Part shown: positions 4,937 to 29,000 of the stretch, piece by piece
Numbering within the stretch: position 1 is the stretch's first letter
How the letters are laid out: every line of letters starts with the position of its first letter
Assembly: GCA_900317745.1 (NCBI GenBank)
Contig: ONHW01000002.1
Coordinates: forward strand, 1-64,000
Source of the DNA: an uncultured Bacteroidales bacterium
GTDB lineage: Bacteria; Bacteroidota; Bacteroidia; Bacteroidales; Paludibacteraceae
DNA: 64,000 bases
Direction: 5' to 3'
Translations under genes and position numbers: made by a program
The notes under the pieces: model-generated
Database searches by the model: none
The model's input: the letters and a program-made list of their open reading frames with translations, nothing else
What the model was told of the DNA's origin: nothing

Positions 4937-5641
4937 TTACTTCTTTGCACCGAGGTTATCGATTGCAAAGTATAGCGGAGTGGTCACACCGTAATCGTTC
5001 TTCTTCGAGCCGGTGAGCGCGAACTTCAGTGCATCGACCTTACCCAGCGAACTGAGGTCAACGTACGTCCAATCCTTGATATACTCCGTACCTTTGGCAA
5101 GCTCCACACGTACCTGGCTGTTAGCATCTACGCCGTTCAGTGAGCCGGTGATAGTCAGTGTGAAGTAGTCGTCAGCGCCAAATGGTGCGCCATTGTCATC
5201 CGACATGCCGTCACCATTAACGATGGCATCTACCACCCACGGCGTGTTGCATACGTACATACCCGGTACAACAAATGCTTTCTTCAGAAGAACGCTGTCC
5301 AGCCCGACATACGAACCTGTCCACACAACAAAGTTCTTGCCTGCAAAAGCACCGCCCTTGGCAGACATATCGTTCTGATAGTCACCTTTGTACTCGTTGC
5401 TCGTCTGGTTGCTGACAACATTGCCGTAATAGTATGTTCCCCAGTCTGAAGCACTTACCTCCTGCTGGAACACAAAGTCACCGCTCTCAAACGTACCGCT
5501 CTGGCTGAGGTGAAGCACGCTCTCGGATGCAAGAGTAATGTTCTCAAAGTCGGCTACCTGAAGGCTCACCTCCGGCTCTGTAGGTTTACAAGCCGACAGC
5601 GCCAAAGCTGCTACGGCTACAATCAAAAATGATTTTTTCAT
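4937..5641 (-). CDS. DUF4465 lipoprotein, predicted B12-uptake accessory
   Basis: A 234-residue lipoprotein: MKK start, hydrophobic core and lipobox LSAC with Cys18, so probably on the outer-membrane surface. The rest is one DUF4465 domain, a beta-sandwich ending in WTYVDLSSLG...TTPLYFAIDNLG. DUF4465 proteins are commonly found in Bacteroidota cobalamin loci. The BtuH-type surface B12 binders are an obvious comparison, but I cannot confirm that relation. It is the last gene of the riboswitch-controlled btuB unit, 18 bp after its neighbour. The giant protein at 10418 carries a second copy of the domain near its C-terminus. Confidence 0.75.
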   Translation of the reverse strand: MKKSFLIVAVAALALSACKPTEPEVSLQVADFENITLASESVLHLSQSGTFESGDFVFQQEVSASDWGTYYYGNVVSNQTSNEYKGDYQNDMSAKGGAFAGKNFVVWTGSYVGLDSVLLKKAFVVPGMYVCNTPWVVDAIVNGDGMSDDNGAPFGADDYFTLTITGSLNGVDANSQVRVELAKGTEYIKDWTYVDLSSLGKVDALKFALTGSKKNDYGVTTPLYFAIDNLGAKK

Positions 5642-5659: not shown

Positions 5660-6772
5660 TTAATAAATATTGGTTATTTTAATCCCTAATGGGTTATATT
5701 CGTTTTCGTTGCGAATAATGGTCAGTTTCCCATGGCGTATCACCTTTGACGCCTTGCCTGCTTTCCCGCCTAACCTATTGTTATCTACGCCGGTTGTTTC
5801 TGCATCGGGGTGCAGGTCGCGTGCGCCCTTAATCTCGGTGGACGTCTCGCCAATCGAGCCCAACCATTGGTGTAGGGCGGTATATACCTTGACGAAATCA
5901 ATCTGCGTGAGTCCTGCCGGTGTGCCATCGGCGCGTACTGCCCAATCGATGTTCAGTTGCGCCTCGGCAGCACTGTTCGGGTGGTTGTCGGCATAGCCGT
6001 AGGCGTACGGGTAGAGTACGTACTGGTTGTTCTTCCACTCGTAGTTGTCCGGCAGACGTGCACCGGTAAACGTCAGGTTGTCGGCATCAATCCACTCGGG
6101 GTAGTACGGCTGCTTGTGAAAACTGTTCTTCTCCACATATCCGCTTGCACCCCGGTTGTCCGTCCAGCGAATGTACGTTGTGTCTGTGCGGTACTTCTTA
6201 TCCTTGTCCGGCGTGGCAACATGACTGTCGTCAGGACGCTCGTAGGTAACGCTGTAGCCGTGAACGGTCAGCGGGTTGGTATATTCCGAGCCTGCAAGTT
6301 CGTACCATTCGTCATCAGGTTTGCCGTTGCCGTTGGCATCGGTGCTCACCATTACTATGCCGGGTTCGCAACTGCCCCCACCGGCTGCACCGGTTTGCTT
6401 GTTGGCATAGAAAGCGTTACCCTCAATGATCAGGTCGTATGCTCCGGGCATGTTCACTACGGGGTGGTCAAAACCGAACACCACATATCCTCCCCAGCTG
6501 CCCAAGGTGATCATGCCGCCGTTGTTGTCGGCAATCTGTTCTTCCACCTTGCGGCACATAGCATCCATATCGTCGCCCGGCTCATACTCCGGCAATGTGT
6601 TCACAAACTGCCCGGGTGCAGGCATATACTCATACACACGCGTCAGGTACGGGCTGTTCTGTGCCACCAGCGGCAGCACCGCACACAGGCATAAAATGCC
6701 AATGCCGTATGAGCGCTTCGCTGTCGGAGGGTTAGTGCTCAACGATAAAAGTTTGTTTACTAATGCTCTCAT
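5660..6772 (-). CDS. T9SS surface protein of the B12-uptake operon
   Basis: A 370-residue secreted protein. I start at ATG 6770-6772; an open frame extends to 6931 but that extension only translates the GC palindromes. Residues near 20-37 are the signal peptide core ending in PLVAQ. The mature part is a single predicted beta-rich domain (YEYMPAPGQFVNTLPEYEPG, later STDANGNGKPDDEWYELAGS). It resembles surface-layer-type proteins found beside BtuG in Bacteroidota; its function is unknown. The end (HGKLTIIRNENEYNPLGIKI) is a T9SS tail, so here it would be secreted rather than lipid-anchored. N-terminal residues TNPPTAKRS are a repeat word also found in lpxB. Confidence 0.7.
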   Translation of the reverse strand: MRALVNKLLSLSTNPPTAKRSYGIGILCLCAVLPLVAQNSPYLTRVYEYMPAPGQFVNTLPEYEPGDDMDAMCRKVEEQIADNNGGMITLGSWGGYVVFGFDHPVVNMPGAYDLIIEGNAFYANKQTGAAGGGSCEPGIVMVSTDANGNGKPDDEWYELAGSEYTNPLTVHGYSVTYERPDDSHVATPDKDKKYRTDTTYIRWTDNRGASGYVEKNSFHKQPYYPEWIDADNLTFTGARLPDNYEWKNNQYVLYPYAYGYADNHPNSAAEAQLNIDWAVRADGTPAGLTQIDFVKVYTALHQWLGSIGETSTEIKGARDLHPDAETTGVDNNRLGGKAGKASKVIRHGKLTIIRNENEYNPLGIKITNIY

Positions 6773-6795
6773 ATTATCTTTCAATTTTGCTTCCC

Positions 6796-6872
6796 TTACT
6801 CCCCTCCTTTCAGGGAGGGGTTGGGGGTAGGCTTTCACTCCCCTCCTTTCAGGGAGGGGAAGGGGGTAGGCT
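6796..6872. repeat. Two GC-rich palindromic repeats (REP-like)
   Basis: Two copies, each able to pair CCCCTCC with GGAGGGG and followed by a G-run and GTAGGCTT. They lie in the 104-bp gap between the btuG-like gene and the next gene of the unit. Related elements occur at 51150-51262, 52508-52546 and 53902-53932. Confidence 0.8.
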
Positions 6873-6876
6873 TGTC

Positions 6877-8073
6877 TCATTTGGTTACAAACGCAATCTG
6901 CGAAGGTATATCCCCCGTTTGCACCGCCCACTTATGCGTGCCGTTGGGTGCATAGCAGTGCAACATACCGGGATTGACGTAATTCTTTGCATCCGACACG
7001 TAGATATCCCTTGTCAGCGGATGTACCTTGACGCAGTATGGTTTTTGTATTTGTGTCTCTGTCCCGTCGGTGATAAAGTTCGTGCTCACCACCTTGTGCG
7101 TGCGGGTGTTGATGATAGAGTAGGTCACTACGTCCTCGTAGTTGATGTAGTCCCACGCTGTGGCGCAGGCGTAGAGCGAGTCGCCGGCTATATCCATAGC
7201 CGACACGGCAATGCTGATCGAGTCTGTTACTTGGTCGGTAGCCGGATCGATGCAATAGAGTTTGGCAGGTGTGCCGTAGTAGTCGCCTCGCGAACTGACC
7301 CACAACTGTCCCTGCGCATCGGTGCGTACCCGCCAGAGGTTCTTTGCCACGGTGATACGTTTGGTCTGCATGAAGGTCTTCAGGTCAATTACCGACACCG
7401 TGCTGTCGTAGTCCGGCACCATGTATCCGCCGGAGTTAGCTACGTACAGTTTGCCGTTAGCCACAGCCAACTCGTCCGGCTGGTAGCCTACCAGACAGGT
7501 GCTGTCAATCTGCAAGGTGGCTGTGTCGAACCGTGCCACGTAACCTATCTGCGCATGACTCGCGTCCAGCGACACCGGACCGGCGTACGAGGTGACGTAT
7601 GCATACTTGCCGTCGAAGGTTATGTACCGGCAGTTGGGTATATTCACCTGCCCGATACGTTTGCACGTTCGCGCATCGAGTACCTCCACCTTGTTCGAGC
7701 AGTTGATCACGGCATATAACCTGTTACCATATATCTTCAGGTCGTTGCCCACATCGCCCAGCTCCTTCGGCACGTCGGGATTAGCCTCGCCGTAGATGTT
7801 CCGGCGGTAGGTGGCGGTGGTGTAGTCGTAGTAGTCGAGCGTCGATTTGTTGCTGCCCATATTCCCCTCGTTGAGCAGGTAGAAGCCTACGATTACCGGC
7901 TGCCGTATGCTTGCAGAGTCGGTAGGTGGAACAACGATGAGGGTATCGCCTATGTGCTCCTCTTCCACAGGAATGACAGGCTCATCGTGGCGGCAGCAGG
8001 TAAATAAGACCGCTGACGCTGACAGAAGAGAGAACGCTGACGCTGATAGAAGCCTATGTACAAATGCTATCAT
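6877..8073 (-). CDS. btuG: BtuG-like surface B12-binding beta-propeller lipoprotein
   Basis: A 398-residue lipoprotein (lipobox FTC, Cys26) with a long run of propeller blades of the YncE/DUF5074 kind: YVTSYAGPVSL, YQPDELAVANGKLYVANSGG, YCVKVHPLTRDIYVSDA. BtuG proteins of gut Bacteroides are such seven-bladed propellers; they sit on BtuB and capture cobalamin very tightly. The gene lies 24 bp after a btuB-like receptor under a cobalamin riboswitch, which makes the assignment strong by context. The signal peptide contains a duplicated SLLSASA, encoded by two 24-bp repeats; this does not break the hydrophobic core. Cobalamin-contact residues cannot be judged by eye. Confidence 0.8.
   Translation of the reverse strand: MIAFVHRLLSASAFSLLSASAVLFTCCRHDEPVIPVEEEHIGDTLIVVPPTDSASIRQPVIVGFYLLNEGNMGSNKSTLDYYDYTTATYRRNIYGEANPDVPKELGDVGNDLKIYGNRLYAVINCSNKVEVLDARTCKRIGQVNIPNCRYITFDGKYAYVTSYAGPVSLDASHAQIGYVARFDTATLQIDSTCLVGYQPDELAVANGKLYVANSGGYMVPDYDSTVSVIDLKTFMQTKRITVAKNLWRVRTDAQGQLWVSSRGDYYGTPAKLYCIDPATDQVTDSISIAVSAMDIAGDSLYACATAWDYINYEDVVTYSIINTRTHKVVSTNFITDGTETQIQKPYCVKVHPLTRDIYVSDAKNYVNPGMLHCYAPNGTHKWAVQTGDIPSQIAFVTK
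8008..8054 (-). repeat. Two 24-bp repeats in the btuG signal peptide
   Basis: GACCGCTGACGCTGACAGAAG and a near copy 24 bp later (plus-strand text). They encode the doubled LLSASA. About 13 bases (AGCGTCAGCGGTC on the other strand) recur in the insert of the cca gene at 21768-21815. Confidence 0.7.
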
Positions 8074-8097: not shown

Positions 8098-10167
8098 TTA
8101 AATGGTTATTCGTATGATACCTTTGCCGTTGATACCCGGCATAGGGTAGTTGAGTATAACTTCGTATTGCTGGTTGAACATATTATTGATTTCAATGGCG
8201 AAATGCAGTCGTGGTCGGGTAGGTAAATCATAACTGATGCTCATATCATGCGTGTACCACGGCTGCTCGTGGTTGGCCGGTATATTCGCGCTATTATGAT
8301 AGCGCTCGCCCACATAGATGAACGCGTAGTTTACACTCAGTCCGTTCCATTGCAGGTTTACCGTCGCGCTGCCGCTGTGCCACGGGATATAGGCTATCTG
8401 TCCGCCGTAGGTCATCTCGCCCGGGTCGGTAAAGTCTTGTGCCTTTTGATAGGTGTACGCTGCGGCTACAGTCAGCAGCACCTCGTTTGTCAGGTCGAAC
8501 GTGCCGGAGGCATTCACGTCGCAGCCGCGGATCTCTACATACCCGAGGTTCATCATCTGCCAGCGGTACTGACCGTTGCCCTTGGGGATGGCTACGATCT
8601 TGTTCTTCACCTGGTTGAAGTACCCGTCAGCCTTGATGCTGAGCATTCGGCACACGCCTTCCTGCCAACGTTTGTCGTACTGCACACCACCGTCGTACTG
8701 GGTCGTATATTCAGGCAGAAGAGAGATGTTACCCACATCGGTGTAGTACAGGTCGTTGAACGTTGGCATGCGGAAGATGCGTTTATAGTAGGCGCGCAGG
8801 AAGAGCTCCTCGCTCAGGATAGGCTGATAGCTCACAAACACCGCCGGCGTGAACTGCGGTTTCTGCTTGTAGGCGGTCGGAGTGCTGAGGGTAGGCTGGT
8901 GGATCTTGTCGAAGATGAACGTACCCAGCACGGATGCCTGTGTTTTCAGGTACTTCCAGTACAGCTGCGTAGCCGCGGCTGCAAGCACGGTGTTGCGTTC
9001 GGGAAAGACGAAGTTGGCAAGGTTACCCTCCAGGTAGTTCCACTGCCAGTCGGCACTGAGCGAGACGTCCCAGTTCACATCGTTGTGCGGCACCAGACCT
9101 TTCACACCTACCACTGCCAATCGGTGCGCCATACTCAGGTAGATTTCCTGCTGGGTGAACGTATTGTCGATATACATCAGCGTAGTGTCGGGGTTGAGGT
9201 AACGCATCCGGTCGTTGCTGTACTTGGCGTTCACCTGCACGTCGTAACCTTTTGTCACGCGCTGGGTGTAGTTGCCCTGCGCAAATGCGTTTCTGTCCCA
9301 CTGCCGCTGGCTGTTCGTCCATACATTGTTCACTATTGCTCCGGGTATACCTTTCTCGCTCCGGTAGTAGTAACCCTTCACGTGCCACTTGCCTTCGGGC
9401 AGGTACCCGAACAGCCCGACCTCGGCTCTGCCTGCCTGCACATCGCCGTTCTGACGGACAGCGGTCGTGTCCCACGCAACAGCACCGCTCGGCAGTACCC
9501 TGCGGTAGCGGAAGTGATAACGCCCGTGGGCGTATGTATATTCGCCGCTTGCCGACAGATGGATATTGTCCGTCAGTTTCTGCTCGTACAGGATAGAGGG
9601 ATTAGCCAGCCCGAATGTGCCGGCTTTCATTGTGATGCTCAGGTTGTAGTTCTTGCCCGGTGTGAACTTCGGGCGGCGGGTCTTGATGTATAGTGTACCG
9701 GCACTGCCGTAATCCTTGGCGGGCTGGAATATCTCTGACTTCTGACCGTTGTACAGCGCCAGCTCCTCTATATTGTCCATCGAGAACTTACCCAGATCGA
9801 CTGTCCCGTTCTGTGCGTTGCCTATCTCTATGCCGTCGTAGAACACGCCGAGATGGTTCGTACCCATAGAGCGCACGTCGATCGTCTTCATGCCGCCTAC
9901 GCCGCCATAATCCTTGATCTGCACGCCCGAGAAGTACCGTGCTGCATCCGCCACGCTCTGCGTGGATAAACCCTCCAGCCGCGCACCGCTGAGCGTCTGC
10001 ACAGGTATAACAGGCTCCTCGCGCCGGCGTGCAGTCACCTCCACTTCATTCAGATTAAACTGATGAGTCAGGCTGTCAAGGTCAGATGCCGATACAACAG
10101 AAACGGCTTCTGCCTGAACAGCAGTGCACGCAACAAAAGACACTATGAATAGTAGCGAATGTTTCAT
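8098..10167 (-). CDS. btuB: TonB-dependent cobalamin receptor, BtuB type
   Basis: A 689-residue outer-membrane receptor. Signal peptide at 1-19; TonB-box-like segment LNEVEVTARRR near 40; plug domain about 45-160 with VADAARYFSGVQIKDYGG and FYDGIEIGNAQNG; then a beta-barrel to the C-terminal strand INGKGIIRITI. It would take up cobalamin using TonB energy. The substrate rests on context: the start codon lies 33 nt after a cobalamin riboswitch and the next gene is BtuG-like. Length is typical of Bacteroidota BtuB proteins. The inner-membrane transporter BtuCDF is not in the window. Confidence 0.88.
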   Translation of the reverse strand: MKHSLLFIVSFVACTAVQAEAVSVVSASDLDSLTHQFNLNEVEVTARRREEPVIPVQTLSGARLEGLSTQSVADAARYFSGVQIKDYGGVGGMKTIDVRSMGTNHLGVFYDGIEIGNAQNGTVDLGKFSMDNIEELALYNGQKSEIFQPAKDYGSAGTLYIKTRRPKFTPGKNYNLSITMKAGTFGLANPSILYEQKLTDNIHLSASGEYTYAHGRYHFRYRRVLPSGAVAWDTTAVRQNGDVQAGRAEVGLFGYLPEGKWHVKGYYYRSEKGIPGAIVNNVWTNSQRQWDRNAFAQGNYTQRVTKGYDVQVNAKYSNDRMRYLNPDTTLMYIDNTFTQQEIYLSMAHRLAVVGVKGLVPHNDVNWDVSLSADWQWNYLEGNLANFVFPERNTVLAAAATQLYWKYLKTQASVLGTFIFDKIHQPTLSTPTAYKQKPQFTPAVFVSYQPILSEELFLRAYYKRIFRMPTFNDLYYTDVGNISLLPEYTTQYDGGVQYDKRWQEGVCRMLSIKADGYFNQVKNKIVAIPKGNGQYRWQMMNLGYVEIRGCDVNASGTFDLTNEVLLTVAAAYTYQKAQDFTDPGEMTYGGQIAYIPWHSGSATVNLQWNGLSVNYAFIYVGERYHNSANIPANHEQPWYTHDMSISYDLPTRPRLHFAIEINNMFNQQYEVILNYPMPGINGKGIIRITI

Positions 10168-10200
10168 TCTGACTTCCTAATCCACGAGGAATACACGTCA

Positions 10201-10340
10201 ACGTACGCCAGGTCTTCTGGCTTACTCCGCGGTTCAGCGCCTTCCCGCCTACATGGCAGTGACGTAATGCCGAACCGTTGTCAGGAGATAACAGCAGCGG
10301 GTCTGCACAGGACTTGCACCTGTTTCCCTTAATCGTACGT
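10201..10340 (-). promoter_or_regulatory. Cobalamin riboswitch upstream of btuB
   Basis: Read on the minus strand the element has the conserved cobalamin-aptamer blocks: GGGAAACAGGTGCAAGTCC, a GTCACTGCC block (B12-box region), GGCGGGAAGGCG and GTAAGCCAGAAGACCTGGC. The ends pair (10201-10207 with 10334-10340, ACGTACG/CGTACGT) as the P1 stem. It is expected to switch off the btuB unit when adenosyl- or related cobalamins are abundant, probably by hiding the start region, since only 33 nt separate it from the ATG. Confidence 0.93.
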
Positions 10341-10345
10341 GGCAG

Positions 10346-10377
10346 CAAAGGTACAAAAAAAAATCCACATTTGCAAA
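10346..10377 (-). promoter_or_regulatory. Promoter of the btuB riboswitch unit
   Basis: On the minus strand TTTG (10374-10377) and TACCTTTG (10346-10353) are 20 nt apart. It lies just upstream of the riboswitch and inside the hairpin that ends the giant gene. Confidence 0.75.
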
Positions 10378-10398
10378 TTTATGTGGATTTTTTTTGTT
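10353..10398 (-). terminator. Terminator of the giant gene, overlapping a promoter
   Basis: A near-perfect inverted repeat: ACAAAAAAAAATCCACAT (10353-10370) and its complement from 10381, loop TTGCAAATTT. On the minus strand it follows the stop of the 2069-residue gene and ends in a T-run. The -33 element of the btuB promoter falls in the loop. Confidence 0.75.
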
Positions 10399-10417: not shown

Positions 10418-13400
10418 TTACTTAACAAGTGCACCCTGTGTATTGAATTGTTTCCCGTCCGACGTAATGAGATACAATATACCATTCCTAATGCATTTGA
10501 CGGCCTTTTGCGAACCGTTGATGTTTTCTGCTCCTGTTGCCGGATCGTGCGTGGCAGCACCGAAGTTATCCAGGCAGAAGTAGGTCGGTGTGGTGAATCC
10601 GAATTGATCGGATTTGGTGGTGAACATCTCAAACTCCAGACGTGTCACAGCACCTAACCGGCTCAAGTCAAGCCATTTCCACTCCTTCATGGCAAAGCGC
10701 TCGCTTTCATTCGCACTGCGATAATCGGCAAGGTAGAACATCACTTCGCCTGTCAATGTCTCGCCATTGTACCCCTTGACGGTAAGGCTCAGGTAGTCAC
10801 CTTCGCCGAAGGCGTCGTTGGCATAATCACCATTCAGTATAGCGTCCAGAGTGTAAGCACTGTTCGTCACATAGAACCCGGTTATGGGCTTTGCCTCGGT
10901 TGTATAGGTCAGTGTGATCGGGTCTTTGTAGCCGGCATACCAACTTGACGGGGCTGAATAGTAAGCGATGGCAAAGTTGTCGCCTTCGTATGCACCGCCT
11001 GCAGCCGAGCGGAACTGATCAATCATGTATTCGCCGGTAGCTTCATTGGATTTGTCTGCACTGATTACGTAGCCGCTGAAGGCATTGTATGACTTGTTCG
11101 GCACATTGGCAAAGGCGTAACTGCCACTATACAGATACGTCTCTCCCCCGTCTGCCCATGCATCGTCAACCATCTTATGTCCGCTTTCGGGCAACGTATA
11201 TTCCTCAAAGGTAGCTGCATCGGCAGTCTCTACCCACACGTGTGCCGACACATAGGCATCCTGCCCGAACTTGTCTGTCACGTGGCAGATATACTCCGTT
11301 GCGCGTGTAGCATTGATGTTCAGCGTAGCCTCGTTGCCAATCTCATCGTTGCTGAACGCCGTGCGCCATGAGTAGGTATATGGCTTAGCCTGCTCATACT
11401 CGGTGGTTAACGTAGCTGTCAGCGAGAGAGCTGTTCCTGCTGCTACTGTTTGTTCGGCGATAGTATTCAGCATAACAGGACGCAGCGTCCAGAGTGTAGT
11501 GAATGACTCTGTGGCAGTAACCGCAGCAGCCGCGTCACCCAACGGCGAAAGAGTTACAACATACGCCTTGTAAGCCGTCTCTTCGTTCAGCCCCTTGATA
11601 GTAATACTTGCCTCGGCATCCTTTTGCAACGTCAGTTCGGCCCCTTGTGCTATAACGGTTTCAACACCCGGAGCCTCGGCATCGGCAGCCAGCACAAGCA
11701 CGCGTGCCGTACCGATATTATTCGCCTTGACTACTATATCCGCCAGACTATCCTTCACATTCAGCACAGCAGGGTACCCTTCTGCCAATGCCGGTACGCG
11801 GAACAAGTCGGCGTCGTACTCGTATGCTCCGATGGTAGGCGTAGCGGCACGGGTCTTGCCGGTGATGTCGGTGGTGACGGAGGCCATCACTTCGGCAGTC
11901 AGCAGACGGCCCTCGTTGGTCTCTTTCGGGATGAGGAGCGTTGCGGAAGCGAAAGTAACGGCTTCGTTCAGGTTTCCGTCCTCGTCAGTGGCACCCACTG
12001 CGGTCTTCCAGTCTGCAAAAGTGCCGACATTGGCGGTAGGCATACCGAAGGTTGCTTCCGGCGTATAGAGGATATTATGGCGGAAGACGGTATTGGCAAT
12101 CGAGCCGGCGTTCTTATAGCGGATTGCGTACCCCTTGCCTGAGGCTTGAATAATGTTGTTCACAAAGAGCGAACCTGCAACCGGCGCCGACTGGATATAG
12201 ACCGGCGAAGCGGCTGTACCTTCCGCATGGAGCACAATCGTGTTGTGCGCAACCAGCAGTTTAGGCAGGTTGGAATTGAGATTGACGGCATAGGACGCGT
12301 AGGTGGAAGCGTTGGCTGCATAGATTGTATTGTTGATAACAAACAGCACGGCGTTCTCCTTGTCCTGATAGCTGTTTGGACGGAAATAGAGCGCCTGGTA
12401 GTTCAGGTTGTCCGAAGCCTCGGCAGTCATGTAAATATCATTGCCGGCAATGACAGCCGTGTCGCCAATCAAGAGCCAGTCAATAGCCGCGCAGTTGCTC
12501 TTCTTTACTTCTGTACGGAAAGTATTGTTGAGCACCTGCAGTTTGCTTACTGCATCGCCGTAGAGCATCTGGTTACCTTGGTTGCGGAAGGTATTCCGGC
12601 TAATGAGCATGTTCTGCTGTAGGGGGTCAGCCGCAGCCTTGTGCCCAGTTACGTGGAGACCCATATATCCGCCCTCCAGCACACTGTTAGTAAGAGCAAA
12701 ATCATTATTGTAATTGTTCTCCCCTGCGTCCACGGAAAGCAAATCCAGACGCATGGTATATTCTGTCATCCGTTCGGCGTAGATGCGGCAACTGTCAATC
12801 GTCACATGCGTAGCGGCATTGCGTACAATGACCACCGCCGGGCTCTGGTTGGAAGTATAGGTGGAGGTGAAGGAGAGACCTTTGAGGGTCACATAGTCGG
12901 CACCATCAATGGTGAAGACACCCTTCTCGGCGGTCAGCGTGTTGTGGTATTGGTAGGTCACGTCGTTGTATTTTCCGGAAAGCGAACGGATAGTAATGGT
13001 GTTCGCTGCACCGGCGCCGTTGATTTCAGGCACAGTGACTTGTTCTGTGTATGTCCCCGGTTCGACAGCTATCTCTACCGCGCCGTCCATGCCGATGGTG
13101 CTGATGGCTTGGAGCGCCGCTGTGAGGGTGGGGTAATCCGCCAGCGCACTCGCTCCGACACGGTAGAAGCCATGTGCGCCGCTGACCACATTGATGGAGA
13201 CAGCGGCTGTGCCCTGCGGAGCTATCTTCTGCTCGCCCAGCACCACGTTATCCAGCGTGAGCGACACAACATTACCTACCTCTGCATCGGCATCCACAGA
13301 GCCTACGAACCAGAAGTAATAAACGCCCTTCTCGTCCATGACATAACTATCGGTAAACTCATTCGCGGTAGAGAACGTGGTGGAATGGCCGGTAGCGTAT

Positions 13401-16400
13401 ATATGGCGGTCGATGAGAAGGTCCGAAGTTGTCTGTTCAAAGGCGGTAATGGTAAGCGGTGTGCGGTCGCCGGAGACATAGACAGCCGCTCGCATCAGAC
13501 GGATGTCGCCTGTTCCTTTGGTAGCCTCCGCCGGTGCCATCGGTGTAACGAGTACCGAGTCAACCGTGAGATTGGTCAACAAATGTTGGCGTACCTCTAC
13601 CTCAAAGCCTCTCATCCGGCTGGACGGCATCTTGACATAAACAGTCAGTGAACCATCCGCAGCACGAGAGATGACACTCTCATTTTCTGCCGGCTTGGAG
13701 TACATACCGTATTTCTTATCCGAGGTGGCCTCGGTGTCATAGGCGTTGGCGTAATAAATATGGAATGGATCGCCGGAGAGATAAGCGACATCAAAGTCTT
13801 TGAATACCAACTCTACGGCATAGCCTTCGGTAGCCGGCACGAAAGTGATATATCCCTCGAAATTTGCGGTGTAGTTCTCGTCCGCTCCGCCGTCGTCATA
13901 GAACATCAGGCTGTTTTCGCCGATGGTCACTGTGCCGTTGTCCCCGGCTTGCAGGTAACGCACGTTCTTCACCGTACGGCTGCCTTCGGGATCGCCGTCG
14001 GCAATGGCTTGGGCATTGCCGCTCAGAGTAACACTCTTCAGTGCGGCATCAACAGCAGTCTCGACCGTAGCATCGGCTTTGATGTCTGCAGCAACGACAA
14101 AAGCATTGTCGTATTCAGCGAGTGTAGCAGGTGTCTCCAATGTCAGTGTCACCTGTGCCGCTGCGGCAGCCTGTGCCAGCACGTTCTCGCCTTGCAGCAG
14201 ATAGATAGTCTCAACATTGTTTTCCGTGCCTTTCATGTCAACGGTCAGTGCATCCATGGTCAGCGGATTGAGCGTACCCAAGGTTTGCAGGTTGATGTCC
14301 AGAAGTGCTGCTTTCTGTTCTCCCAACTGTACAAGTTTCGAGCTCGCCTGACTAACGCTGACAGACTCCAACTGCATGTTCTGCAACTTGTATTCCTTGA
14401 CTGTCGCATGCCACCCCTCGCCATTGTAATATGTGGAGGTCGTGTTGGGGTTGAATACGATAGTGATCGCGCCGTCGGCTGCCGTAGAACGAATCTGCGT
14501 AGGTTTCTTGCCGTTGGCATCCAGTTCCCATAGTTTGTCACCACTCGTGCCTTCGCCTGCATATACAATATATTTAGCGCGCGTGCCGTAATAGGAACTT
14601 GAGGAATAATAGGCATCAAAGTCCGCATAATCTATCTGGATGACGTACCCCTCATGTATCGGCTTGAATACCACCGTCTGGTCGCAATCCTCGGCTTTGT
14701 ACTTCGTGCTGTACTCGTTGGCTACGGTATGGGTATATTGCCACTCGCCCTGAATGTTAAATACCTGACTGCCACACGCCTGTACGGCTTCGTTCTTGAT
14801 GGTCAGTTGTCCGTCAGCCGCAGCGAACGAGGCATACTCCGTGCCGTTGGTGAACAGCAGTTTCTCAAGTGCCACATCTACAGTCATGCCATTCTCAGCC
14901 AAGGTGTGGATGTCATATACGAGCCACAGGTAGTTCTCACCCTCGCGGAAACTTACGCTGTTGGTGGCTGCCAGTGTTACTTTGTTGTCAGCGATGGCTA
15001 CCTCACCCAATAGGTTGCTTGTAGCAAAACTGTTGCTCTTGGTGTAGTACAGCTTGGCTTTGGCGAGTTGCGTATTGGTATTGTTGGTATTGAACTGCAA
15101 CTCCTTCACTGCCAGAGCCGGCTCAGTCTCTACTGTTGTCACCTTCAGCGAGGCTATCAGCACATCTTCTGCTCCGGCTGATACGGTGGTGCCGGTCTGC
15201 TTGGTTGCCTCTACACCGCTTACCGTCATAGCCTGAGGCATGAACTCACTGACTACGGCTTCCCAACCGGATTTGAGGTTGGAGTCGTAAGATATATTGT
15301 TCTTGTGCGTGATCGTCAGTTTGCCGTCAGCGGCGGTACTCTTGATCACAATGTCCGACTTGCTTGATGCCTCTGCATGCGTCAGTTGCCACAACAGGTC
15401 TTTTTCGTCCGTGCTGTTGCCATTATACACCTTGATATAATCGACATACCCCGTAGAGTTGGCTGCATAATCGGTGTAGAAGACATCTATCTCCTTAAAC
15501 GTCAACTGCACTTTCTTTCCATCCGTGGCAGGCGCGAACACTACCTTACCGTCAAAGCCCTTGACAACCTTGCCGTCCTTACCGCCTTCGTCGTAGAACT
15601 TTGTGTCCTGTGCGATGCTATAGGTTGCATCCGTAGCCATCAGGTACATCGGCTGTACCATCAGTGTGACAGCCGCAGCCGGAGTAAATGCCGTAAATCC
15701 GCCTGCTGTGGCAATGCCGGTCACATTCACCGATGCTGTCGCATTGAATGCTGCCGAAGTCATAACATCACCGCCCAGACAGAACAGGTTCGCACCATTG
15801 CTCAGCGAGTACGCGTCAGTCAGGGTATAGGTATATACCCCTTCCGATTCAGTAATAGTACCTGCCACTTCGGTCAAACCTGCCACAGAGGCTGACTGAC
15901 CGGCATACAGTTTCAGAGCGGTAGCATCAATCACCGCTGCATTGGTGCATGTAAAAGTCAGCGATTGCAGTTTGTCGGGTGAAGAGTAGCCCTCTGTCGT
16001 TATTCCAAATCCTGCTACACCTACGCCCTGCTTGCCTGCCCAAATCTCACCGTCTACAAAATCGTTATTACCCGAAGCGGCCTTGACGGTCATGCTCTCC
16101 AGCAACACCTCCTCAACCGTAGCTTTCCAATAGGACTCTTTTGGGGAAGGATCTTTTGAATACAAGCACACCGACAGACAGCCGTCCGCCGAACCGGAGA
16201 TATACGTCGGCAGCGGGGTGACAGTACCGTCACCGGGAATGTAAGCAATCTGGTTTGCATTTTCAGCAAATCTGCCAGACGGATTGCCACTCGTGGGATA
16301 CGTTGTCCCATCTACATCATACTGACCGTTGTAAAGACGCAAGTACACATCATACGAGGCACTATACCTGGTCAGGTTCAACTCCTCAAAACTTATCTTA

Positions 16401-16627
16401 ATCGAATAGCCCTCTGTGGCAGGCTTGAAGATAACTGTTGAGAATGCTGATTGGGTAAAATGAGTATCTGCTCCCTTGAAATCATAAAAGGTTATCGGAG
16501 CATCTTTCGACACCACTTTTGTGTCGTAACCATACTGCGGCATCAGGTAATCCTCAGCTGCCGCTGTGCCGCTTAGCCAACTCATGGCAAAGACGGCAAA
16601 ATACATAAGTAGTTTTTTCATAAGCAT
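10418..16627 (-). CDS. Giant riboswitch-controlled T9SS protein with DUF4465 domain
   Basis: A 2069-residue secreted protein. After a signal peptide (to about 25) come four CUB-like domains (about 35-175, 327-462, 624-746, 892-1020). They alternate with segments resembling the BNR-associated N-terminal domain of sialidases (phrases like SFREGENYLWLVYDI). Residues about 1150-1605 look like a right-handed beta-helix (LTAALQAI...PGTYTEQVTVP, ends TPTIGAYEYD). A fibronectin-III segment, an Ig/PKD-like segment and a DUF4465 domain (about 1803-2023, ending WKWLDLSRLG...TTPTYFCLDNFG) follow. The last 30 residues are a T9SS tail (NGILYLITSDGKQFNTQGAL). A cobalamin riboswitch and its own promoter lie upstream. 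The DUF4465 domain matches the lipoprotein at 4937, so a role in surface B12 capture is likely but unproven. Confidence 0.8.
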   Translation of the reverse strand: MLMKKLLMYFAVFAMSWLSGTAAAEDYLMPQYGYDTKVVSKDAPITFYDFKGADTHFTQSAFSTVIFKPATEGYSIKISFEELNLTRYSASYDVYLRLYNGQYDVDGTTYPTSGNPSGRFAENANQIAYIPGDGTVTPLPTYISGSADGCLSVCLYSKDPSPKESYWKATVEEVLLESMTVKAASGNNDFVDGEIWAGKQGVGVAGFGITTEGYSSPDKLQSLTFTCTNAAVIDATALKLYAGQSASVAGLTEVAGTITESEGVYTYTLTDAYSLSNGANLFCLGGDVMTSAAFNATASVNVTGIATAGGFTAFTPAAAVTLMVQPMYLMATDATYSIAQDTKFYDEGGKDGKVVKGFDGKVVFAPATDGKKVQLTFKEIDVFYTDYAANSTGYVDYIKVYNGNSTDEKDLLWQLTHAEASSKSDIVIKSTAADGKLTITHKNNISYDSNLKSGWEAVVSEFMPQAMTVSGVEATKQTGTTVSAGAEDVLIASLKVTTVETEPALAVKELQFNTNNTNTQLAKAKLYYTKSNSFATSNLLGEVAIADNKVTLAATNSVSFREGENYLWLVYDIHTLAENGMTVDVALEKLLFTNGTEYASFAAADGQLTIKNEAVQACGSQVFNIQGEWQYTHTVANEYSTKYKAEDCDQTVVFKPIHEGYVIQIDYADFDAYYSSSSYYGTRAKYIVYAGEGTSGDKLWELDANGKKPTQIRSTAADGAITIVFNPNTTSTYYNGEGWHATVKEYKLQNMQLESVSVSQASSKLVQLGEQKAALLDINLQTLGTLNPLTMDALTVDMKGTENNVETIYLLQGENVLAQAAAAAQVTLTLETPATLAEYDNAFVVAADIKADATVETAVDAALKSVTLSGNAQAIADGDPEGSRTVKNVRYLQAGDNGTVTIGENSLMFYDDGGADENYTANFEGYITFVPATEGYAVELVFKDFDVAYLSGDPFHIYYANAYDTEATSDKKYGMYSKPAENESVISRAADGSLTVYVKMPSSRMRGFEVEVRQHLLTNLTVDSVLVTPMAPAEATKGTGDIRLMRAAVYVSGDRTPLTITAFEQTTSDLLIDRHIYATGHSTTFSTANEFTDSYVMDEKGVYYFWFVGSVDADAEVGNVVSLTLDNVVLGEQKIAPQGTAAVSINVVSGAHGFYRVGASALADYPTLTAALQAISTIGMDGAVEIAVEPGTYTEQVTVPEINGAGAANTITIRSLSGKYNDVTYQYHNTLTAEKGVFTIDGADYVTLKGLSFTSTYTSNQSPAVVIVRNAATHVTIDSCRIYAERMTEYTMRLDLLSVDAGENNYNNDFALTNSVLEGGYMGLHVTGHKAAADPLQQNMLISRNTFRNQGNQMLYGDAVSKLQVLNNTFRTEVKKSNCAAIDWLLIGDTAVIAGNDIYMTAEASDNLNYQALYFRPNSYQDKENAVLFVINNTIYAANASTYASYAVNLNSNLPKLLVAHNTIVLHAEGTAASPVYIQSAPVAGSLFVNNIIQASGKGYAIRYKNAGSIANTVFRHNILYTPEATFGMPTANVGTFADWKTAVGATDEDGNLNEAVTFASATLLIPKETNEGRLLTAEVMASVTTDITGKTRAATPTIGAYEYDADLFRVPALAEGYPAVLNVKDSLADIVVKANNIGTARVLVLAADAEAPGVETVIAQGAELTLQKDAEASITIKGLNEETAYKAYVVTLSPLGDAAAAVTATESFTTLWTLRPVMLNTIAEQTVAAGTALSLTATLTTEYEQAKPYTYSWRTAFSNDEIGNEATLNINATRATEYICHVTDKFGQDAYVSAHVWVETADAATFEEYTLPESGHKMVDDAWADGGETYLYSGSYAFANVPNKSYNAFSGYVISADKSNEATGEYMIDQFRSAAGGAYEGDNFAIAYYSAPSSWYAGYKDPITLTYTTEAKPITGFYVTNSAYTLDAILNGDYANDAFGEGDYLSLTVKGYNGETLTGEVMFYLADYRSANESERFAMKEWKWLDLSRLGAVTRLEFEMFTTKSDQFGFTTPTYFCLDNFGAATHDPATGAENINGSQKAVKCIRNGILYLITSDGKQFNTQGALVK

Positions 16628-16887
16628 ATCATTGTTTTATTCACCTTTCACCTTTCACTTTCCCAACAAGACCTCAGGGGCAGCCTGCCTCACGGCAAGT
16701 TGCTCCTGCATAACACCCAATAATGATTGGCAGAAGAAATGATGAGTGTATGTTGTCCTGTTGCGCATTGTGCATTGCATTACTTGCGTCACAAGACTAC
16801 ACTATCGAACCATACACACGTGAAAACTGCGCAGAATATGCGCTGCTGTATTCGTTCGTCTCCAGTCCGCGGGAGTCTTGTGAACGC
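16628..16887 (-). other. Leader between riboswitch 2 and the giant gene
   Basis: About 260 nt without a convincing gene; the btuB leader has only 33 nt here. Just before the start codon is a short repeat (plus strand ACCTTTC three times, 16637-16660). A stem is possible around GCAGCCTGCC...GGCAAGTTGC, but no T-run terminator is evident. How the riboswitch acts here is not visible. Confidence 0.4.
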
Positions 16888-17030
16888 TCGGCTATGGCAG
16901 GTCTTCTGGCTTACTCCGCGGTTCAGCGCCTTCCCGCCTCAATGGCAGTGACGTAATGCTGAACCGTTGTCAGGAGATAACAGCAGCGGGTCTGCACAGG
17001 ACTTGCACCTGTTTCCCTCTTAGCTCTTGC
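16888..17030 (-). promoter_or_regulatory. Second cobalamin riboswitch, upstream of the giant gene
   Basis: The core (about 16895-17018) is almost identical to the riboswitch at 10201: same GGGAAACAGGTGCAAGTCC, GTCACTGCC, GGCGGGAAGGCG and GTAAGCCAGAAGACCTGCC blocks on the minus strand. Its flanks differ, so the end stem is not shared. The near identity of the core suggests a fairly recent duplication or conversion. Confidence 0.92.
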
Positions 17031-17110
17031 ACATGGCAAGAGAACCGTAGTCGGTATGTAAATTGCTCTGCGGAGTATGCTCATACACGCATTTTCCGCA
17101 AAAGTGACTG

Positions 17111-17142
17111 CAAAGTTAAGCATTTTTTTGCAATAAAGCAAA
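17111..17142 (-). promoter_or_regulatory. Promoter of the second riboswitch unit
   Basis: Minus strand TTTG (17139-17142) and TAACTTTG (17111-17118), 20-nt spacing, about 80 nt upstream of the aptamer. Confidence 0.7.
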
Positions 17143-23073: not shown

Positions 23074-26000
23074 ATGAAATACATAGTGCGTTTAACTGAT
23101 CAAACTATGAAAAATTCCCTGAATACAGAGGCCTTTGCCCCTCTAAGCCGCAACCTTACCTCATTAGGCACTCGGCTTTTACTAAGCTTTAGTCTTATTC
23201 TGACCATGCTCTTCACCTTTGGTGTGGGAGAGATGTGGGCGGAGGCGTTCTGGCCTTACGCAGGTTTTTATGAGGTGTACATGACGTACTCCTATAGTGG
23301 GAACAATACTAACTATTCGTTTTATAGTAGTGACAACAACAGCAGTCAATCGTTCGACTTGGGAACACTGACAGCTGATTTCAAAGTCAATGATCTCTAT
23401 TTTAAGTGTTACAAAAACACAAATGATTGGGGGAAATATGGCAATATTTGTGGAGGTTTGATGATTTATAATACCGGAAGCGGAGACACTGAGTACCAAC
23501 CAACTTGGTCTGGCTGGGATGATGACAAAGGCTGGGATGATGGATTTCAGGCTCACAAGAGAGAACTATATAAGACAGGATGTAATAAAGTTATCGCTTC
23601 ATACAATTCTGGACCTTCGGGTAGTTATACAGCACAACTTTGTTTTAAAATGTGGGGAAGTGATGACAATGGAAGCGATTGCGGAGATATATGGTGGATA
23701 AGTAACAATAGCTATAATTACAAATTTACGTATAATATAGCTCCTCCGGCAGTCAGTGGCTTTACCATAACTCCTTCGGGTGAAGGCTATGTTAGCGGTA
23801 CCGGTACAGAGTCCGATCCATATATTATGAGACATGATGCCGGAAACCTTGTGCTTACTATGTCCGGTTCAAAAGCGCGCACAGATGCCAATTCTTCTGC
23901 CAAATATTATAATGGCTCTTCTTGGAGCGCGACAGCAACCAAAACAATATACTACGCAAATGGCTCTACAACAAAGCAGAGTATTACATTGAAGATGAAG
24001 TACAATAACAGTGACGCATCTTTGGATGGAGCAGTAAGCGAAAAAACAGTATATTACCAGCGTGAAACAGCTTATACTGTTTCGAAGGCTGCCACAACAG
24101 GCGGTTCGTTTACTGTAGCTTCTTCAGTTGGAGCTAAGTCCGGTGGTGCAGTAACGGCAACTCCTAGTACCGGATATAATTTCAGTGCATGGTCTATAAC
24201 AAGTGGTTCGGGTACATGGGCACAAAGCACATCAACAGCATCCAATACGTTTTACCCGACAAGTAATTCTACCATAAAAGCCACTTTTACTGCCAAGAAT
24301 TATACCGTTACGTTGAACAAAAACGGCGGTGTTGCAGATGGTACGGTACAGACAACTTACAATGCGAATACAACTGCTGGTTTCACAGCCGTAACGCGTA
24401 CAGGGTATACATGTGACGGTTATTATACTTTAGCAGATGGAGGCAATAAGGTTGTTAATGCTGATGGTACATTGGTGGATGGCTCTGTTTCAACATGGCT
24501 CAGCTCGGGATATTGGATAAAAGATGCAGCCACCATCACTCTCTACGCCCATTGGACTCCCAATACCTACACCATTACTCTCGATCCCAACGGCGGTACA
24601 GGTAGTACAGCAAGCGTGGAAATCGACTATGGTCAAACGCCACCGAACACGGATGATGTGGGTAATCATTACTTCAGCATCACCAACCCCACCAAGCCCG
24701 GATATACGTTCCTCGGTTGGTACACGGCTGCAGATGGCGGCAGCGAAGTGATTGATGAAAATGGCGCTTTCCTCGCTCCTGTTGCTGATTACACGTCCAA
24801 TTCCGCAGGTAACATCTGGATTCGCCCGGACAACGCCACCCTCTACGCTCACTGGGAACAAACGAACCTTGCCTTAAATAAAACTGCCTATGCCGGTTGG
24901 TCGCGAACAGTGACCGAAAAAAATGATGGTGAAGTTCCCTCTAAAGCTGTGGACGGCGATTTGAGTTCTCAGCATATTCAATGGGACATCAATGATAACT
25001 TTGCAACCAAAGGTTGGTGGGGAGTTGATTTAGGTGATAATTATGTGCTAAGTGATCTGTATATCTACTGGCAAGCTGGAGAGGACGGGCGTGCACCACG
25101 CTATTATGAGATCCAAGCGACTGTTGATGCGCCGACAGATTTTTCTAACGATCATGTAATGGACGATGGCATTCATTGGCATACAATCAAAACGATTTCC
25201 GGTGTTGCGCAGAATTTAGGTTCTACGCCTAATATTATTTCCTTTACTTCCGGAGAGCATGTAACAGCTCGATACGTACGTATTGTAAACAAGGATGCCT
25301 CGCGTAAGCCCATGGCTATCGCCGAGTTCCAGGCGTATGCCTATGACGTAGAGAGTTGCTCTGCTGCTGCTAATACACCCACAGCCTCGTTCGCAGGTAT
25401 AGTAGGCGGACGTGTCAAACTTAATCTGGCTGCTACAGATGCGAATAGTGAAGCGTTGACCAATTTCGCTGTTTTGTACGATGGCATATACTACGATGTC
25501 ACGGCTTCTGCCGGTGTCGGGTACGTAACACTTCCATCACATAGAGATATAACCGTTCGGGTATATGCGTACAACACTTGTATGCAACGCAGTTCCGGCT
25601 ATGTGGAGGTTGAGATAGGTGACTATGTCAATCCTCAGGAGAACCTGGCTGAACTCAAAACGACTTGGGTTAGTTATACCAATAACAACAATGACGAAAA
25701 GCAGGCAAACCTCAATGACGGCGTGCTTGATACCAAGGGCTGGATCCCATATCAAAACACAGGAAAGAATGCGTGGATGGTTGTGGATCTGGGCGATACG
25801 TATCAGATAAGCACTATTCAGACATTCTTTGCTACTGATCGTCGATCGACCAACTACAAGATCTATGGTCGCCAGAATGACCCTTCAACAGACGATGTCC
25901 GTGGCGATAATACAAAATGGGTTGAGTTGGCAAGCAAATCTTCGTCAATTAATGCAGGTGCTACCGAAAGTGATGTAAATGAGAGTGCTGTCTCTTTCAC

Positions 26001-29000
26001 TGGTGCAGTTCGATATGTCCGTTTTGAGTCGTTTGCGGAAGAGTGGGACGACGTGGCAAACGGATTCAAACTGCTCGAGTTCCGCGTGTTCGGTAGTGCA
26101 TTTAAGTCTGCCGATGTAACCGGCCCTGTTATCTCCACATGTGAGATAGATGCTTCTGCTGAAAACGTGACATCTACCGTCTTGCATTTGGTGGCTACCG
26201 ATGCAGTGGATGGCGAAGTGTTCAACTATGAGATAAGCACAGATGGTGGTTCTAACTGGACGAAATATAGTACCGATCCTGTTACCCGATTGGTTACGAT
26301 TACTGACCTTACAAGCGGATCTTATACCTTTACTGTCAGGGCGTATGATATAGTCGGCAATTATTCTGCCAATAGCACTGTAAGTGTAGATATCTGGAAT
26401 CCGGCTGCCAACCTTGCTCTCAACAAAACTTCGTGGGCGGGACACGAAACAGGTGGAGCAGGCGAAGCAAAGGATAAGGCTAATGACGGTAGTCTTACCA
26501 CGTTCTGGACTTCGTGGGATGGGGCTAACCCCGGTGACGACTGGTGGTGCGTGGATTTGGGTAATTATTACCAACTGAGCGAAATTGATGTGTTCTGGCA
26601 TCAGATGGATGGCTCAATCAATCTTCATTCGGAGAAATATACCATACGTGCGCGTCAGAATTTGAGCGGAACGGCTTCTGAGATGGAGGCAATTATGCGC
26701 GACAGCACACTATGGTACACCATTGTTCGTCAGTCCACTACGCCTAATGTGGGAAATACTGAAAGCAACAAGAATGCTTATTATCCGCTTAACACACCGG
26801 CACGCTACCTGTTGCTCAAGTCAACACAACGTAATGCACTCAATCAGCAGATTCGTTTGTCCGAATTCCGTGCATACGGCTCGGGGTTTGCTGCCGCTGA
26901 CACGCATGTGCCGGTTATATCCTCTGCTACGGCAAGTTACAATGACGATGGTAAGGCATATTTGACTCTGACGGCAACGGATACTGAAGATGGAACTGTC
27001 AGACTGTTCCGTATATATAATCCATATACCGAAACGTATAGCCTGCAGCAGACAAACGGATCTAATCAAATCGTGATTGACGGTCTGCCGACTTGTACCG
27101 ATTATACGTTCCGAATCCAAGCAATGGACAAGGCTGCTCAATTGTCGGAAGTCACGAATCTGGTAGTGAATGTACCTTTGATTTCTACCACTAACCTCGC
27201 TCCGTTGGCTACCATAACGTCAGGTACGAATAGCGGTGCAGGTCTCCGCAATCTTGTGAACGGCAATACGGCTGATACATGGGAAGTTGCAGATGGTACG
27301 ATTGCAGGAGATAATGAGTGGGTGACTTTCCAATGGGAGCCCCCGTATAAGATATCTACTGTCAAAGTCTATTGGGAGACCCACGCCGGAGGAGGTTCTC
27401 GTCCTAAGGACTATGAGTGGCAGGTTTCCAACGATGGTACACATTTCGTCCCGGTTCTGCACTATACTACCAAACCCGACGCAGAAGAGACTTACACGAT
27501 TAATACAACTGCGCAGTATATCCGCTTGTTTGTAAATAAGCATGATCAATATAAAGGTATGTGTCTCAGGGAGGTAGAGATGCGAGGAGACTGTGCAGAG
27601 GATTCTGACCTGCCGATCATGCTGTTTGCGGAGGTGAAGCTTGAAGATATCTTCCGAACCAACGCTAAAGTGCATGTAGGTGCTATCCATAAGACTATAC
27701 CGTCCAACGAATTGCTCTATCATGTTATTGTTAATAACGGTGCACCCATTACAATCACGGCAGGACAAGTGGTTGACAATTATATAACAATTAGCGGGTT
27801 GACTAAGGAAACAGCGTATAATGTCAAGATTTATGCAGCCAAGATTAGTGATACCGAGGAAAATCGCTCTGCTAACTATAAGGAAGTCAATTTCACTACT
27901 CAAGGTGATTATTCCGATTATTATCTGGCTAATTCAATTAACGGTTGGCTGGCGGTTAACGGTGGTGAATGGACCGACGCAATGAACGCATGGCGCTTCC
28001 GTACTACAGACGTGGACGGAATATATAATCTTACACATGCGGTTAGCGTCACCGAGAATTGGACATACTTGATTTATAACCGTGCTACCGGTACACGCAC
28101 TCCGGGTGACAGAACAGCAAGCGTAGTTGCAGGAAGGAATTTCAAGGCTGTAATGCACGACTTGGACCATTATGTCACTAATTATTCCAACCTTTATATA
28201 GCCGGTACGGCTGTTGGTACAGCTGAAAATACTCGTTCCGAACAGAATCGGCTCACATGGATTGACGCCACGCGTGCCGTGTGGGAGGGACGCGTGACGA
28301 ATGGCGGTACGTTCCGTATTATATCGTACGACAATGTGCTGCAAACCGATTTTATCACTCCTACTGCACAAACCTACAACGAAGGGTATTCACATGCGCG
28401 TCTGACATTTACGTTTGACGATGAAGCAGACTTTACGTGGACGTGGAAGGAACTTCCTTCTGAGCAATTCTGCTCGCGTAGCGGAGGAGCCGGAAGTGGC
28501 GCTGTATTGGATGGTTCAGCATTCGGCGTAGGGGAGAGTTATTCTGTATATGCCTATATGTCCGCTGGTGGCAAATGGATTGTGGAGGCAACATGTAGCG
28601 GTATTGAAGCTGCTAATGCCTATCTGCAACCGTTTACTTCTCTCGCCGGTGACGGACGACAGGAGTTCGCTATGGCAAAGATTGATAATTATTTCCGCGT
28701 GGAAATTGATCCGGCTTCCATAACCTACAAACTTAATAATCTTGCTCGCTACGTAGTTAAGTTTGCTGTCCCTGCAGGTATTCGCTATACCGATGTCCAC
28801 TACTACGACTTCACCGGCTCGGGCGAGTGCGCACCCGACTTCTTCGATATCTACCACCACGACGACGTAGCCGCGGCGCCCGAAGGAGCACAAACCTCGT
28901 TTGTCGGCGGTGTGATCATGCAGCCTATACGTTACTTCCGTCACTACGACAACTCCGATTGGACAACCGTTTGCGTACCGTTCGATGTCAGCAAGGTTAC

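Follow-up and report, generated by a model that had tools for sequence, protein, structure and literature searches.

The vitamin B12 (cobalamin) scavengers BtuG, BtuH and BtuJ of Bacteroides thetaiotaomicron are lipoproteins, the largest one named in the relevant sections of PMC10404256 being BtuG1, of about 70 kDa, and the same sections describe BtuG2 as able to take B12 from intrinsic factor and the loci as controlled by riboswitches. BtuH was defined in PMC8941943, whose main text contains none of the terms T9SS, type IX, sorting and multidomain. Proteins with the DUF4465 domain, on the other hand, form the BtuJ family and not that of BtuH (PMC12751083, PMC13398666); in its sections on the domain, PMC13398666 reports that eight divergent DUF4465 proteins bind B12 and names tyrosines of the HI and DE loops as B12-binding, and the HI-loop motif is also described in the corresponding section of PMC12751083. 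Here we analyse a stretch of 64,000 nucleotides (hereafter the window) from an uncultured, gut-type Bacteroidales bacterium of the Paludibacteraceae (assembly GCA_900317745.1, contig ONHW01000002.1, positions 1 to 64,000). Behind a cobalamin riboswitch of its own, this DNA encodes a 2069-residue protein, the giant in what follows, which ends with a DUF4465 domain and which, by inference, would be a B12-regulated, exported and probably B12-capturing protein. An earlier note on the same DNA had regarded it as an undescribed, very long surface B12-capture protein with DUF4465, likened there to BtuH, at the tip of a long stalk.

The tail recorded as IPR026444 is presumably the C-terminal sorting signal of the type IX secretion system (T9SS). 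It is carried by 229 of the 824 DUF4465 proteins tallied in the relevant section of PMC12751083, so that a DUF4465 domain with a C-terminal targeting tail is not in itself new. In X. ruminicola KHP1, four cobalamin riboswitches are reported, two of them directly 5′ of genes with a cobalamin transport or biosynthesis annotation (PMC11575231, relevant passages); neither these passages nor those of PMC9723704 describe such a giant. No description of the giant family was found in the open-licence literature, preprints aside, searched on DUF4465/BtuJ/BtuH, T9SS, CUB domains, cobalamin riboswitches, Prevotella, Paludibacteraceae or B. salyersiae. The B12 domain, the export route and their pairing are therefore already known, and what is new, as far as these searches go, is the fixed architecture of the giant, the riboswitch linkage across Bacteroidales families and the likely specific work of the N-terminal array.

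The giant gene and its riboswitch

The single long open reading frame (ORF) behind its own riboswitch, the promoter and the near-canonical cobalamin aptamer proposed earlier all stand (Table 1). Aptamer 1, ahead of the giant gene, spans the full Rfam model RF00174 (1-189) with 108.3 bits (E 3.5e-26; curated cut-off 31.5 bits), and thus passes the covariance-model scoring on which the earlier note had been ready to give it up. The general promoter pattern TTTG-N18-23-TANNTTTG, of which TTTG-N20-TAACTTTG precedes the giant, occurs 12 times in the window vs 0.74 times expected by chance. Since the terminator scan lists none within the leader (16628-16878), control of the gene at translation or via Rho would be likelier than control by a terminator.

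Aptamer 1 and a second one, ahead of the neighbouring btu operon, are the sole RF00174 matches in the whole 2.6-Mb assembly (completeness 95.6%). Their cores (10209-10332 and 16898-17021) are near-identical over 124 bases, as might be seen after a recent duplication or conversion. In one relative (L039), the riboswitch copy 3′ of the giant scores far below the other (42 vs 103 bits).

A riboswitch-linked family

Rather than a lone protein, the giant is a member of a family to which the riboswitch also belongs. In the same genus, it has five orthologs, 2069-2191 residues long and 41-73% identical to it over nearly their full length. A scan of the GTDB species genomes with two N-terminal peptide patterns gave 136 relatives, the best 80 of which, a choice biased toward complete giants, make up 78 distinct loci (numbered L below); five of these (L070, L072, L085, L089 and L115) were taken as the same loci as the five orthologs. 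A one-off protein is ruled out by the orthologs and by the 78 loci (best of 136), which come from Paludibacteraceae, Prevotella, Prevotellaceae, Muribaculaceae, Porphyromonadaceae, Bacteroidaceae and Bacteroides salyersiae, and whose complete frames, the frameshifted L099 excepted, encode 1719-2784 residues.

A riboswitch model (R1), built from 13 aptamer cores and searched over 84 sources, places a riboswitch upstream on the same strand in 73 of the 76 giants with a 5′ end (2 of the 78 loci lack this end), 70 of them within 1.7 kb; the distance is below 600 nt in 56 of the 78 loci, 600-1700 nt in 14 and 2.2-4.6 kb in 3. Three of the loci (L070, L072 and L115) are contigs that also supplied R1 sequences, and a weak R1 match (L074 5202, E 0.046) was left out of these counts. 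Rfam's own model likewise gives a riboswitch in 11 of 12 loci checked, with L097 as the exception, and it was also run on 16 of 20 further loci (L035-L050, with L051-L054 outside the scan). In Bacteroides salyersiae DSM 18765, which carries a giant, the riboswitch scores 110.7 bits. No upstream riboswitch was found in three loci, L097 and the two with just 332 and 85 nt of upstream sequence (L080 and L129). Where the stretch between riboswitch and giant was inspected (11 loci), a BtuH-like gene lies in 9, several of them with the same kind of tail as the giant. As the giant recurs with the same switch in dozens of related species, the gene is real and conserved.

A search for DUF4465 matched 45 of 61 genomes, the giant's own included, and several other genomes of the genus have either fragments that stop at a contig end or DUF4465 proteins of smaller size. 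An order-wide profile search matched 182 of 198 genomes, a figure that does not gauge the spread of the giant because the matches listed are mostly single repeats or DUF4465. Also among those listed are two nearly full-length ORFs, of 2468 aa (G233, aligned over 67-2025 in two pieces) and 2555 aa (G152, 331-2069 in two pieces), and one spanning 9-1618 (G193).

The DUF4465 domain

Pfam places DUF4465 at residues 1846-2022 (E 9.6e-42, 143.8 bits vs a cut-off of 25). A model of residues 1570-2069 from 72 sequences, with a predicted local distance difference test (pLDDT) score of 89, has DUF4465 structures as its best nine matches, with FN3 tandems lower, and reaches template modelling (TM) scores, by target length, of 0.82 with B12-bound 9HMU and 0.80 with BtuJ1 (9FCT); the modelled domain has the augmented beta-jellyroll fold of B12-bound DUF4465 structures. 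Hidden Markov model and structure prediction, the comparison that the earlier note had proposed, thus agree on DUF4465. Its equation with BtuH has to be dropped, BtuH being a distinct domain with its own gene in the window (5660-6931): just three chains match the giant at E<=0.01 (9HMU, 4JQR and 4E9K), all of the DUF4465 family and none of the 7BIZ/8BLW type.

The pocket loops are also present. The giant carries the NTPAY-like HI-loop motif as TTPTYF (2012-2017) with Tyr 2016. For the DE helix, the aromatic residue is Y1925, which lies at the helix start in the model and, by alignment to 9HMU, would answer to Y146 of BtuJ1. Conservation was counted over 72 C-terminal 500-residue pieces, from the window and 71 of the 78 loci (six are cut by a contig end and one is frameshifted), which are 15-95% identical to the window protein. 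DUF4465 and the HI-loop Tyr are each found in 71 of them and Asp 2020 in 70; at position 1925, 52 pieces have Tyr and 17 have Trp (either in 69). Capture of B12 at the surface by the giant is likely.

Other DUF4465 architectures were seen along the way. Single ORFs of about 530 aa with two tandem DUF4465 domains occur in L033 (G006:C10), L026 (G026:C149) and G008:C33, and a shorter architecture of 1320-1408 aa, with a different N-terminus and the short tail, occurs in the host genus (L040-L042). Two of these loci, L041 and L042, have a cobalamin riboswitch some 2.7 kb upstream of the shorter gene, with another DUF4465 gene between them.

The N-terminal array

Ahead of the C-terminal part, four CUB-like modules alternate with four BNR_assoc-like ones. 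In profile-profile comparison, the CUB-like modules are mutually alike (all six pairs at E 2e-16 or better), as are the BNR_assoc-like ones (all six at E 2e-14 or better), whereas the best match across the two kinds has an E of 0.0017. The CUB-like and BNR-associated-like domains of the earlier note (Pfam E 4e-5 and, for BNR_assoc_N, 6e-11) are borne out together with DUF4465. Its beta-helix is weak (Pfam E 0.042, below the cut-off), and its Fn3 and Ig domains find no Pfam match in the giant at E<=1, although FN3-type folds are among the matches of the pLDDT-89 model.

The model of residues 1-1160, from an alignment of 59 sequences for which 58 of the 78 loci were taken, has a pLDDT of 88.8 and a predicted TM-score (pTM) of 0.51. 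CUB proteins are among its Foldseek matches, at low TM-scores. By E-value, cubilin (3KQ4) ranks second, behind a large multidomain chain of the alpha2-macroglobulin/complement type, a kind to which several other matches also belong. Homology to cubilin was rejected as a claim, since the likeness is at the level of the fold alone.

Among the 68 complete proteins, 65 were aligned at full length (L099, L118 and L143 were left out beforehand), and in no 50-residue bin of the window protein does the share of them that fill it drop below 86%. Mean identity to the window protein is 58-60% at residues 651-750, in CUB-like module 3, vs 43-50% in the DUF4465 bins (1801-2000). A spacer would be expected to differ in length or composition, whereas here order, length and sequence are conserved, which argues that the array is not a plain spacer.

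Table 1. Features of the giant gene and of the neighbouring btu operon (window positions; residues are those of the giant)
Feature	Position	Strand	Basis or remark
Bacteroidota-type promoter, TTTG-N20-TAACTTTG	17111-17142	minus	pattern match
Cobalamin riboswitch aptamer 1, ahead of giant gene	16879-17064	minus	RF00174
Leader, aptamer 1 to start codon	16628-16878	minus	between the two elements
Giant ORF	10418-16627	minus	2069 aa, ATG start; orthologs known
Signal peptide, residues 1-24	16556-16627	minus	cleavage site by eye; without lipobox
CUB-like module 1, residues 25-172	16112-16555	minus	model, profile-profile comparison, Foldseek
BNR_assoc-like module 1, residues 175-326	15650-16105	minus	model, profile-profile comparison
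CUB-like module 2, residues 328-460	15248-15646	minus	Pfam CUB E 4e-5; profile-profile comparison
BNR_assoc-like module 2, residues 462-612	14792-15244	minus	model, profile-profile comparison
CUB-like module 3, residues 615-746	14390-14785	minus	profile-profile comparison; contains best-conserved stretch of the family (651-750)
BNR_assoc_N module 3, residues 748-890	13958-14386	minus	Pfam match 769-871; profile-profile comparison
CUB-like module 4, residues 892-1016	13580-13954	minus	profile-profile comparison
BNR_assoc-like module 4, residues 1018-1150	13178-13576	minus	profile-profile comparison
Probable right-handed beta-helix, weak, residues ~1151-1605	11813-13177	minus	Pfam Beta_helix 1235-1371, E 0.042, below cut-off
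Fn3-like then Ig-like domains, residues ~1610-1800	11228-11800	minus	model; FN3 tandems among matches; limits by eye
DUF4465 (BtuJ-type) domain with HI loop TTPTYF (2012-2017)	10550-11218	minus	Pfam, alignment, model
Short C-terminal tail of exported-protein (T9SS-like) kind	10421-10525	minus	indirect: orthologs, contig-wide pattern
Inverted repeat flanked by A/T, probable terminator	10356-10395	minus	fold -18.2; separates giant gene from riboswitch 2; partly coincides with promoter 2
Second promoter, TTTG-N20-TACCTTTG	10346-10377	minus	pattern match
Cobalamin riboswitch aptamer 2, ahead of btuB operon	10190-10364	minus	RF00174, 80 bits
btuB	8098-10167	minus	PDB 8BLW chain A (BtuB1), E 4e-119
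btuG (DUF5074 propeller)	6877-8073	minus	8BLW chain B 36-362, E 9e-44
btuH	5660-6931	minus	matches 8BLW chain B H-domain and 7BIZ; same short-tail kind as giant
btuJ-type DUF4465 lipoprotein	4937-5641	minus	DUF4465, BtuJ kind

C-terminal tail and export

The giant ends in a short tail, and a tail matching the sorting model TIGR04183 is found at the same place in three of the five full-length same-genus orthologs and also in B. salyersiae. A short-tail pattern ends 13 of the 181 non-overlapping ORFs of the contig, the giant and btuH included, vs 1 of 20000 random internal 45-mers, and most of the 13 have signal-like starts by eye. SprA and PorU are encoded in the host genome, and a lipobox pattern is absent from the first 60 residues of the giant and of all 76 relatives with a 5′ end. 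SprA was also found in the genome of the B. salyersiae locus (L105, G077), the control Bacteroides ihuae giving no match in the same search.

T9SS substrates are anchored through their C-terminus after processing by PorU. If the C-terminus is likewise the anchored end of the giant, DUF4465 would be membrane-proximal and the array would point outward, which, together with the fixed, collinear and conserved N-terminal array, makes the position proposed earlier for DUF4465, at the tip of a long stalk, doubtful. One family member out of 72 (L124, assigned by letters, C-terminus at 15973) appears to have, in place of a sorting tail, a terminal dockerin (Pfam Dockerin_1, E 2.4e-9), which suggests that a cohesin might anchor it. 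Moreover, BtuH proteins with the short exported-protein tail are encoded in the window (5660-6931) and by intervening genes in loci such as L074, L078, L083, L084 and L090; since the BtuH proteins of the giant's group carry this tail, lipidation may have given way to T9SS in the case of BtuH as well.

The neighbouring operon

Directly 3′ of the giant gene lies a btuB-G-H-J operon under riboswitch 2, which the earlier note did not mention. The DUF4465 domain of its btuJ-type gene is 37% identical to that of the giant over 180 columns, and the listed start of btuH is probably too far upstream. Although the terminator scan does not list it, the inverted repeat between the giant gene and aptamer 2 (10356-10395) is probably where transcription of the giant stops, ahead of the aptamer. 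The host genome (95.6% complete) has a methylmalonyl-CoA mutase, whereas searches for CobQ and for the MetH activation domain gave no match in it, as would suit a host that uses B12 without synthesising it. Elsewhere, the window encodes a protein of 2217 aa (23074-29727) that has both F5/8-type C domains and Listeria-Bacteroides repeats.

Proposed function and rival explanations

The explanation that we favour, and consider likely as a whole, starts with a low intracellular level of B12, at which riboswitch 1, acting as an OFF switch, would permit expression of the giant alongside the btuBGHJ operon behind riboswitch 2. Export of the protein would follow, by way of Sec and the type IX system. 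Cleavage of the C-terminal tail and anchoring of the new C-terminus would leave DUF4465 near the outer membrane, where it would bind a cobamide with the conserved DE and HI loops and hand it over to BtuG/BtuB. The N-terminal array, with its four pairs of CUB-like and BNR_assoc-like modules and the probable beta-helix, would extend outward and most likely hold a partner, a surface or a carrier.

Several observations weigh against this explanation. The T9SS tail has the indirect support of the orthologs' TIGR04183 tails and of the contig-wide pattern, and no curated sorting model (TIGR04183, PF18962) matches the giant itself, for which 0 NCBIfam families are found at E<=1; TIGR04183 is present in just 14 of the 72 family C-termini, and the short-tail pattern was drawn up after the tails had been seen. 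That SprA occurs in 27 of 28 giant-bearing genomes checked, which stand for 28 of the 78 loci, says little, because it is near-universal in the order (188 of 198 genomes), and the association was set aside as uninformative proof of T9SS dependence. As for the regulation, L097 is a true miss, with no riboswitch by R1 or Rfam despite 10 kb of upstream sequence. BtuB, BtuG and BtuJ are each found in the flanks of 16 of the 78 loci, BtuH in 33 and any of them in 36, counts that are lower bounds because many flanks are short and proteins of the window served as queries. Within the host genus, 6 of 37 genomes, the giant's own included and many of them incomplete assemblies, have a DUF4465 frame of at least 1800 aa, a patchy spread from which it follows that the giant is not essential. 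In an unrooted DUF4465 tree (relabelled, 7 rows dropped), the giants' domains do not form one clade (approximately unbiased test, p-AU 3e-60); the domain moved between giant and small proteins, or the small ones arose from giants, and the tree was not used further. Finally, since the best-conserved stretch is in CUB-like module 3 and not in DUF4465, the chain may have a main function other than binding B12.

This last point is at the heart of a different account, possible although doubtful in our judgement, in which the giant would be a B12-regulated adhesin or partner binder whose CUB-like array does the work (on a surface, a host glycoprotein or a neighbour), DUF4465 merely sensing or storing B12. 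CUB folds are ligand-binding modules, and the likeness of the array to them is one of fold, by Foldseek; the array is collinear and filled throughout the family, its residues 651-750 are more conserved than DUF4465, and 42 of the 78 loci show no BtuB, G, H or J in their flanks. Such a role sits poorly with the retention of DUF4465 and of its HI-loop Tyr in 71 of 72 members, and with the location of the giant beside btuBGHJ in the window. The repetitive modular architecture would also suit a plain stalk, with repeats that just carry DUF4465 away from the cell; if the tail acts in the usual way, however, DUF4465 lies at the anchored end, and the array, conserved in length and order, equals or exceeds DUF4465 in conservation, all of which makes a mere stalk quite improbable.

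In a further scenario, the giant would be a released or vesicle-borne binder that collects B12, either for common or for private use. The BtuJ proteins of B. thetaiotaomicron do localise to vesicles, according to the relevant part of PMC13398666, but the size of the giant would argue for anchoring, and we regard this scenario as unlikely. That the DUF4465 domain of the giant has lost B12 binding, the riboswitch being inherited through operon history, is conceivable in that its binding of B12 is itself a prediction; with the riboswitch kept in 73 of 76 giants and the pocket-loop Tyr in 71 of 72, across C-termini 15-95% identical to that of the window, such a loss is very improbable. A more far-reaching reading, put forward as a long shot, is that the CUB-like array might be a receptor for carrier-held B12 (on host haptocorrin, intrinsic factor, or the B12-binding proteins or vesicles of neighbours) and bring the carrier to the membrane-proximal DUF4465, which would take over the vitamin. 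Bacteroidales of the mouth, rumen and gut would then have a working bacterial equivalent of cubilin that is switched on when B12 runs short.

With a riboswitch-linked protein of about 2,000 residues conserved in Prevotella, Paludibacteraceae, Muribaculaceae and B. salyersiae, many species of the Bacteroidales would be investing in a far larger surface device for B12, and the conservation of the CUB-like array raises the question of what the array holds. Cultured strains carry the giant and would allow direct tests of its regulation, binding and anchoring.

Comparison with known systems

Cubilin bound to intrinsic factor-cobalamin (3KQ4 chain B) is, like the N-terminal model of the giant, an array of CUB folds; it is a eukaryotic protein, the TM-score is 0.25 by target, and neuropilin, MASP, C1r/C1s and other CUB proteins match as well. 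BtuH (7BIZ, and the H-domain of BtuG1 in 8BLW) is a surface B12 binder from riboswitch loci, as the giant is proposed to be, and BtuH2 has N-terminal Ig-like domains (PMC8941943, relevant sections), whereas its B12 domain differs from DUF4465. The tailed DUF4465 proteins of PMC12751083 combine, like the giant, the domain with a C-terminal sorting tail; the section on them gives counts, with neither a giant architecture nor a riboswitch link. Also close to the giant are BtuJ1 and BtuJ2 of B. thetaiotaomicron (DUF4465, IPR027828; PDB 9FCT, 9QPM and 9I2L), which have the domain, its fold, the HI loop and cobalamin-riboswitch loci in common with the giant. However, BtuJ proteins are small lipoproteins, with solved chains of 244-305 residues, whereas the giant is an exported chain of 2069 residues, without a lipobox, that carries its DUF4465 domain at the end.

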